Assembly (NCBI RefSeq): GCF_000299935.1
Contig: NZ_AMRL01000006.1
Coordinates: 62,001-126,000 of the forward strand
DNA: 64,000 nt
Source: Oceanibaculum indicum P24
GTDB taxonomy: Bacteria > Pseudomonadota > Alphaproteobacteria > Oceanibaculales > Oceanibaculaceae
Reading direction: 5' to 3'
Position 1 is the stretch's first letter. The number at the start of each line of letters is the position of its first letter. Position numbers and translations under genes: made by a program. Positions 34,559-36,161 of this stretch are shown here, piece after piece. The notes beneath the pieces are model-generated. The model saw only the letters and a list, made by a program, of their open reading frames with translations, searched no databases and was not told where the DNA came from.

Positions 34559-34891
34559 TCAATCGACGATGAAGATCTTCGCCCCGGTGCGGGTCGAGGA
34601 ACGGTGCGGGGAGTCGCCGAAGTCGGAGACCTGATAGCCCATGCCCGGCGTCAGCACATTCTTGCGGCCATCCTTCAGCTCGCTTTCCAGCTCGCCCTCC
34701 AGCACCAGCAGGATATGGCCGCGGTCGCACCAATGGTCGGCCAGATAGCCCGGCGAATACTCCACCATGCGGATGCGGATGTCGCCGACCTCCAGCGTGC
34801 GCCATAGCGCCTCGCCAGTCTCGCCGGGATGGCGGGTGGCCGGCACCTTGGACCAGTCGGTCGCCGTGAAAGGCAGGGCGGGGATTTTCAT
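34559..34891 (-). CDS. DHCW-motif cupin-fold protein
   Basis: A 110-residue single-domain cupin. It has the motif region YLADHWCDRGHILLVLEGEL (residues 49-68), the distinctive DHWC cluster of the DHCW-motif cupins, then TPGMGYQVSDFGDSPHRSS and TGAKIFIVD. It probably binds a metal; no reaction is known. It is the last gene of a minus-strand run of GNAT, RidA, RidA and cupin genes, with 12 bases between its start and the RidA stop. Confidence 0.87.
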   Translation of the reverse strand: MKIPALPFTATDWSKVPATRHPGETGEALWRTLEVGDIRIRMVEYSPGYLADHWCDRGHILLVLEGELESELKDGRKNVLTPGMGYQVSDFGDSPHRSSTRTGAKIFIVD

Positions 34892-34903: not shown

Positions 34904-35263
34904 TCAGCGTGCGGCAGTCAGCTTGATCTCGACCAATATGTCCGGGCGGGCCATGTCCGCCCGGCAGCAGGTCAGGGCCGGCGGATTCGCCGGATCGACC
35001 CAGCGGTTCCACGCCGCCACCATGCCGGGATAATCGGCCATCCGACGCAGCCAGATCGTGGCGGTCAGCAGCCGGGACTTGCCGGTCCCGGCCTCTGCCA
35101 GCAGCCCGTCCAGCGTTGCCAGCACCTGGGCGACCTGGCCCTCGATGCCGGCACTGGTGTCGGACGGCACGGTGCAGACCGAGACAAAACCGCGATGGGC
35201 GGTGCCGAGGCTGATCGACAGCTGCTCCGTCGCGATGATGCCGAAGCGTTCGGGCAGGCTCAC
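34904..35263 (-). CDS. RidA family protein, divergent copy lacking the conserved Arg
   Basis: A 119-residue YjgF/RidA-fold protein. It aligns without gaps to the 119-residue copy just upstream (both contain a VDP-NPP segment and end RPDILVEI or FPDILVEI). At residue 97, where the upstream copy has Arg in PARAC and family imine deaminases need Arg (E. coli Arg105), it has Leu (PALTC). It also has Cys at positions 99 and 100. It is therefore unlikely to be a standard 2-iminobutanoate/imine deaminase; the new function is unknown. Its start overlaps the upstream copy's stop by four bases. Confidence 0.88.
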   Translation of the reverse strand: MSLPERFGIIATEQLSISLGTAHRGFVSVCTVPSDTSAGIEGQVAQVLATLDGLLAEAGTGKSRLLTATIWLRRMADYPGMVAAWNRWVDPANPPALTCCRADMARPDILVEIKLTAAR

Positions 35264-35619
35264 TTTACCGCCGTGACCATGATCTCGACCAGGATGTCGG
35301 GGAACGCCATCTCGGCATTCACGCAGGCACGCGCCGGCGGGTTCTTCGGATCGACCCAGGCATTCCAGACCGAATTCATCGCCTGGAAATCCTTCATGTC
35401 CTTCAGCCAGAGCTGCGCGGTCAGCAGCTTCGACTTATCGGTGCCGGCCTTGGCGAGATAGGCATCGATGGTGTTCAGGATTTCCTGCGTCTGGCCCTTC
35501 ACGTCGGCGGAACGGTCCTTGGCAGTCAGTCCGCACAGATAGACCATGTCGCCATGGATAACGGTGCGGCTCATGATCGGGCCAGGGCCGGTGGTGATGT
35601 CGATACGTTCGATGCTCAT
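35260..35619 (-). CDS. RidA family protein (imine deaminase-like), conserved copy
   Basis: A 119-residue YjgF/RidA-fold protein, probably hydrolysing reactive enamine/imine intermediates. The catalytic-type Arg97 (PARAC) and the late Glu (LVEI) are present. It begins MSIERIDITTGPGPIMSRTV with the typical MVYLCGLTA core. It forms a tandem duplicate with the next gene, with overlapping stop and start (ATGA). It lies 35 bases downstream of the GNAT gene on the same strand. Confidence 0.9.
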   Translation of the reverse strand: MSIERIDITTGPGPIMSRTVIHGDMVYLCGLTAKDRSADVKGQTQEILNTIDAYLAKAGTDKSKLLTAQLWLKDMKDFQAMNSVWNAWVDPKNPPARACVNAEMAFPDILVEIMVTAVK

Positions 35620-35654: not shown

Positions 35655-36161
35655 CTAATCCACGGCGCGCACCAGATACAGCGCATCCTCGCCATAGCTG
35701 GCCAGCTTCGCGGCGAGCACGGCATCGGGCTGATGGGGGGTAAAGCCCTGGCGCTGCCAGTAGCCGGCGGAATTGTTCACCGCCGTCAGGGCCAGCAGGG
35801 GGAATCCCTGTACCTTCGCCAGTCCCAGCAGCCGGGCGACCAGCGCCGCCCCCAGCCCTAGCCCGCGCGCCGTCGGCAGCAGGGCGATGTCGTGGAGATA
35901 CAGGCAATCCGGCCTCTCCGGCAGGCTGCCCAGCAGCGAATCCAGCGCCGGCGGCCGGCCAAGCAGCGCCGGATGGCTTACCGCATAGCCCAGCAGCTGC
36001 CCGTCCCGTTCCGCTACCAGACAGCCGGCGGGATAGAGCATCAGCCGCTCCGCCGCTACCGCAGGCGATTCCGGATAGAGCGGATGCACGATCTCTCCCG
36101 CCGCCTGCACGGCGGGCAGGTCGGCAGGAGTCATGAGGCGCCAGAGGTCGGTTGCGGTCAT
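35655..36161 (-). CDS. GNAT family N-acetyltransferase
   Basis: A 168-residue acetyl-CoA-dependent acyltransferase. The acetyl-CoA loop is RGLGLGAALVARLLGLA around residue 98, with the preceding beta strand YLHDIALLPTA. The C-terminal part NSAGYWQRQGFTP is typical of GNAT folds. The acceptor is unknown. It diverges from glcB across about 140 bases that hold an 8-bp-arm palindrome. It is the first gene of the minus-strand RidA-RidA-cupin run. Confidence 0.9.
   Translation of the reverse strand: MTATDLWRLMTPADLPAVQAAGEIVHPLYPESPAVAAERLMLYPAGCLVAERDGQLLGYAVSHPALLGRPPALDSLLGSLPERPDCLYLHDIALLPTARGLGLGAALVARLLGLAKVQGFPLLALTAVNNSAGYWQRQGFTPHQPDAVLAAKLASYGEDALYLVRAVD

Follow-up and report, generated by a model that had tools for sequence, protein, structure and literature searches.

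The window, a stretch of 64,000 nucleotides from Oceanibaculum indicum P24, carries two overlapping genes for a probable Rid2 imine deaminase (RidA1) and for a paralogue (RidB) without the catalytic arginine. RidB is very probably a pseudoenzyme. It is read here as co-translated with RidA1 and most likely acting as its hetero-oligomer partner or regulator, an explanation to which a probability of about 0.5 is given.

Gene Pair and Neighborhood

Both genes encode 119-residue Rid proteins and share a stop/start overlap (Table 1), as a first-pass annotation of this DNA had proposed. The GTGA overlap is identical in the two related genomes G001 and G002, i.e., it is kept in all three species with the pair, and the arrangement is typical of translational coupling. 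From the gene overlap alone, production of RidA1 and RidB in a fixed ratio may be supposed. The GNAT acetyltransferase gene adjoins the pair in G001 and G002 as well, while the cupin gene does so in G001 and is absent there in G002. Beyond the cupin lies a convergent Lrp/AsnC gene. A promoter and terminator scan gave nothing above the shuffled expectation.

The cupin matches the NCBIfam model "DHCW motif cupin" with 171.6 bits, yet its own motif is DHWC (LADHWCDRGH); a literature search on it returned nothing relevant.

Table 1. Features of the gene pair and of two other Rid2 loci (window positions unless a locus is named).
Feature	Position	Strand	Description
RidA1 (upstream copy)	35260..35619	-	ATG start, 119 aa, contains NPPARACVNAEMA; probable Rid2-type imine deaminase
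RidB (downstream copy)	34904..35263	-	GTG start, 119 aa, contains NPPALTCCRADMA; Rid2-derived paralogue
RidA1/RidB overlap	35260..35263	-	4 nt GTGA (AAGTGAGCC): RidA1 stop TGA and RidB start GTG
GNAT acetyltransferase	35655..36161	-	About 35 nt upstream of RidA1, same direction
DHCW-type cupin	34559..34891	-	12 nt downstream of RidB
G336 pair	L081 5124-5468 and 5462-5812 (G336:C2)		Rid2 tandem, 7-nt overlap, distant alphaproteobacterium
G226 fusion	L072 1865-2587 (G226:C299)		One 241-residue ORF, two Rid2 domains, both with Arg; natural fusion

Assignment to the Rid2 Subfamily

Scores against PF01042, the Rid superfamily model, were 85.5 bits for RidA1 and 53.7 bits for RidB, both above the curated cut-off of 27.3 bits. 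The whole genome (G000) has seven Rid-family matches above the Pfam cut-off, on contigs C1, C6, C13, C25 and C32; this pair is among them, as is a further Rid2 copy, located on C25. The best alignment of the two proteins gives 54 identical residues out of 116 (47%) with an indel near the N-terminus. The earlier claim of an alignment without gaps was only partly right, since ungapped identity is 46/84 from residue 36 on and 2/35 in the first 35 residues, where an indel is needed. This first third of RidB, nearly unrecognizable against RidA1, forms the β1–β2 hairpin beside the site.

RidA1 has PSPTO_0102, NMB1025 and PA5083 as its best PDB sequence matches, its nearest relatives are Rid2, and R97, N82, G30 and E112 are all present. 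It fits Rid2 as known from YoaB, PA5083, PSPTO_0102 and DbuB throughout, and on these grounds it is probably an ordinary Rid2 imine deaminase. PSPTO_0102 and PA5083 are reported in PMC5619798 as assayed imine deaminases assigned to Rid2. Published Rid2 proteins have as their substrates imines that FAD-dependent oxidases or dehydrogenases of amino acids produce, whereas the neighbors here are a GNAT acetyltransferase and a cupin.

For RidB, the best PDB sequence match is PA5083, which is also the best Foldseek match of the predicted structure (pLDDT 81.1), with NMB1025 matched too; the model compares with NMB1025 and PA5083 at a VIA Z of about 18, so that the fold is predicted to be retained. 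RidB thus shares with Rid2 its fold and its nearest relatives (PA5083, NMB1025 and PSPTO_0102, best by sequence and fold) and differs in lacking Arg97, Asn82 and the pocket Gly. In the tree, it grouped (97/79) with RidA1 and relatives inside the Rid2 sample, on a branch that was not starred. In the Rid5 and Rid6 subfamilies, the residue at the Arg position is variable; the nearest kin found for RidB by PDB sequence search and in the 148-row tree are Rid2.

According to PMC4433059, the Arg is kept in Rid1–3 and missing in Rid4–7, with Trp in its place in Rid4 and Rid7, and Rid7 is described there as inactive on imines. Since its nearest relatives are Rid2, RidB is taken as a Rid2 derivative that itself lost the Arg. 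It resembles Rid4–Rid7, as that source presents them, in lacking the Arg and keeping the Glu, but it has Leu or Phe instead of the Trp of Rid4 and Rid7; together with its Rid2-like sequence, this points to a separate Arg loss.

Active-Site Residues

In TdcF, the conserved pocket residues described include Gly31, Asn88, Arg105 and Glu120: Arg105 binds all ligands and is held by Asn88, while Glu120 requires a small residue at Gly31 and bonds across the subunit interface (PMC1884159). The sources consulted (PMC4433059, PMC5619798, PMC1884159, PMC7311433) present Rid proteins as homotrimers whose sites lie where subunits meet, and activity is commonly predicted from Arg105; Arg-to-Ala mutation is reported to nearly abolish it (PMC4433059). 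By near-invariance and spacing, Gly30, Asn82, Arg97 and Glu112 of RidA1 would correspond to these four pocket residues. The spacing was checked against the E. coli RidA sequence.

The annotation correctly placed Arg97 in RidA1 (codon CGT at 35331-35329) and Leu97 in RidB (codon CTG at 34975-34973), so that RidB has lost the residue matching RidA Arg105. Beyond what it had noticed, RidB also lacks Asn82 and Gly30 (RidA1 numbering), two more pocket positions. Across the three species, RidB has L/L/F at position 97 and V/V/I at position 82. The pocket Gly is replaced by Thr31 in the pairwise alignment, while multiple alignments show a gap there. Glu112 and Pro107 are kept, and T98, C99, C100 and E112 are invariant in RidB of the three species. 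Both cysteines that had been noted beside Leu97 are present; Cys99 also occurs in RidA1, so only Cys100 is new. Judged by these residues, RidB alone would be unable to hydrolyze imines.

Rarity of Arginine Loss

A Rid2 profile built from 11 Arg-bearing sequences was used to survey 271 loci, mostly alphaproteobacterial and chosen by similarity to RidB or Rid2, which gave 224 distinct domains. Above 100 bits, there were 213 distinct Rid2 domains, with Arg97 in 213/213, Asn82 in 211/213 and Glu112 in 212/213. Leu97 of RidB is therefore not a chance variant, and Leu as the usual residue of a subfamily was rejected: the subfamily check that had been proposed put RidB outside any group where Leu is usual, as a derivative of the Arg-keeping Rid2. 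Between 50 and 100 bits, nine domains were found: four with Arg, L003 (another Rid subfamily, with Thr in the Arg column in one alignment and Asn in another) and four Arg-less tandem copies, namely RidB of the three species (L, L, F) and the downstream copy of G336 (L). The two domains below 50 bits belong elsewhere. The Arg-less domains L003, L005 and L031 score at most 58 bits and look like other subfamilies. Since Arg-less proteins score lower and the loci were picked by similarity, some Arg-less singletons may be missed by these counts.

Among plasmids, 484 records matched P0001 at E 1e-4, none of them reaching 60% identity, and the Arg is present in each of the 8 Rid domains (7 distinct sequences) listed in the 6 records examined. 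In the Azospirillum plasmids L248 and L252, a row of genes encodes an FAD-binding oxidoreductase, a protein for substrate binding and, as separate genes, two Rid proteins, both with Arg. The row is likely an operon for amino-acid catabolism that includes both Rid proteins.

Distribution, Origin and Selection

RidB was present in 3/4 genomes of the genus, always beside RidA1, and the fourth (G003) lacks both. No orthologue was found outside the genus in 385 genomes of the class or in the orders of G083 (14 genomes) and G207 (2 genomes). A wider scan of genome contigs returned one locus (JAHJHR010000012.1), apparently the same as that of G002, and none outside the genus; no relative was found in viral contigs. 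Single-copy relatives about 65–75% identical to RidA1 manage without RidB, and no constant neighbor was seen in their synteny.

The stem of RidB is long, at 0.99 changes/site versus 0.21 for RidA1 in a 148-row tree, and 0.87 versus 0.21 in the 47-row tree, where RidB stands beside RidA1 and its single-copy relatives. The split point of RidB is left unsettled by the tree, with RidA1 and RidB as a single clade unrejected in the AU test (p 0.385). Values of dN/dS were 0.17–0.28 for RidB and 0.04–0.15 for RidA1, and stop-free neutral simulations with as few replacements as RidB numbered 0/950, 0/610 and 0/715 in the three pairwise comparisons. After it diverged from the other copies of Rid2, RidB changed fast; today it is under purifying selection. 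Among 118 RidB positions, 20 vary across the three species, including 80–82, 84, 96 and 97 around the old Arg–Asn site. The variation at 82 and 97, two positions only, is a weak sign that a defined ligand is no longer bound in the old pocket.

Other Tandem Rid2 Pairs

The G336 pair, found in 1/10 genomes of its order, overlaps like RidA1/RidB, and its downstream copy has likewise exchanged Arg for Leu97, lacks Asn82 (Thr82) and carries Thr98. It differs from RidB in keeping the pocket Gly and losing Glu112 (Val112), while RidB lost the Gly and kept the Glu. By eye, the genes adjoining the G336 pair are divergent and resemble AmtB and GlnK. Two independent origins of the Arg-less copies are likely: the G336 downstream copy is closest to the upstream gene of its pair (43%), and its matches at E 1e-10 do not include RidB. 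Independence is rated as likely only, because a common origin of the two copies was unrejected in the AU test (p 0.463).

In the other tandem or fused lineages, both copies keep the Arg: the G281 and G358 pairs (genes about 50 nt apart), the G226 fusion and the G205 pair. Since this holds for 3/5 such lineages, standing in tandem is not by itself enough for the Arg to be lost. Only second genes of overlapping Rid2 pairs (the window genus and G336) were observed without it, in a small set where gene ends are defined except for G205. Salmon RidA-1 and RidA-2 are, as described in PMC7311433, likewise duplicated and diverged Rid proteins; unlike RidA1 and RidB, both are active homotrimers and their genes lie on different chromosomes.

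Interpretation

In the proposed course of events, duplication of a Rid2 gene would have produced RidB, which then lost the Arg–Asn pair and the pocket Gly needed for imino acid binding and hydrolysis, and was kept as a non-catalytic protein co-translated with RidA1. The two may form mixed Rid oligomers in which RidB adjusts how active or stable the enzyme is, or what it contacts. A mixed trimer could let the Glu of RidB reach the Arg of RidA1 across the interface, though the Thr that replaces the Gly may disturb this contribution; in the G336 copy, the Glu is absent. That RidB is a partner of RidA1 is given even odds. Mixed assembly becomes more plausible by analogy with the G336 pair, whose downstream copy also lacks the Arg and Asn. 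Counting against partnership, the diverged first third of RidB could also affect subunit packing, and RidA1-like proteins persist as single copies.

The main rival is a RidB homotrimer, an independent pseudoenzyme with a hydrophobic pocket, whose target would be a ligand of another, less polar kind or else a protein; the gene overlap would then be a relic of tandem duplication. The Arg and Asn positions have turned hydrophobic (L/F and V/I), the TdcF site is reported to accommodate various small ligands (PMC1884159), and the RidB fold is predicted to be intact, all of which fit such a protein. Its variable positions around the old site are unlike a specific new ligand site, however, and both Arg-less lineages lie in overlapping pairs, so this explanation is judged unlikely, if the strongest of those competing with a partner of RidA1. 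Retained imine deaminase or another activity, with Thr98-Cys99-Cys100 replacing the Arg, would agree with the invariance of these residues and of E112, but the sources seen (PMC4433059, PMC5619798) treat the Arg as a requirement in this family, and Asn82 and Gly30 are lost too, which makes it improbable. A new catalytic motif formed by the Cys pair was rejected, as Cys99 is common to RidA1 and the pair also occurs in L250, an Arg-bearing Rid2 with RCCC. The long stem branch and the absence of the pair from G003 would suit a decaying duplicate bound to become a pseudogene; against this, RidB is open in three species with the low dN/dS given above, and its replacements fall far below neutral simulation in 3/3 pairwise comparisons. 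Decay was rejected and is given hardly any weight.

Taking the partner explanation further, overlapping co-translated Rid2 pairs may represent a heteromeric Rid that joins a catalytic subunit to an Arg-less one. Alphaproteobacteria would have arrived at it on two or more occasions (in the window genus and in G336), each time through tandem duplication, a downstream Arg-to-Leu change with loss of the Asn partner, and then retention. This generalization is tentative and somewhat doubtful. In the open-licence PMC literature, no report was found of an Arg-less tandem Rid2 partner or of a Rid heteromer.

Production of an intact and an Arg-less subunit side by side would offer a natural test of the number of sites required in a Rid trimer, and of whether Rid pseudoenzymes regulate imine detoxification. 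Calling every "RidA family protein" a deaminase is unsafe, even inside Rid2.
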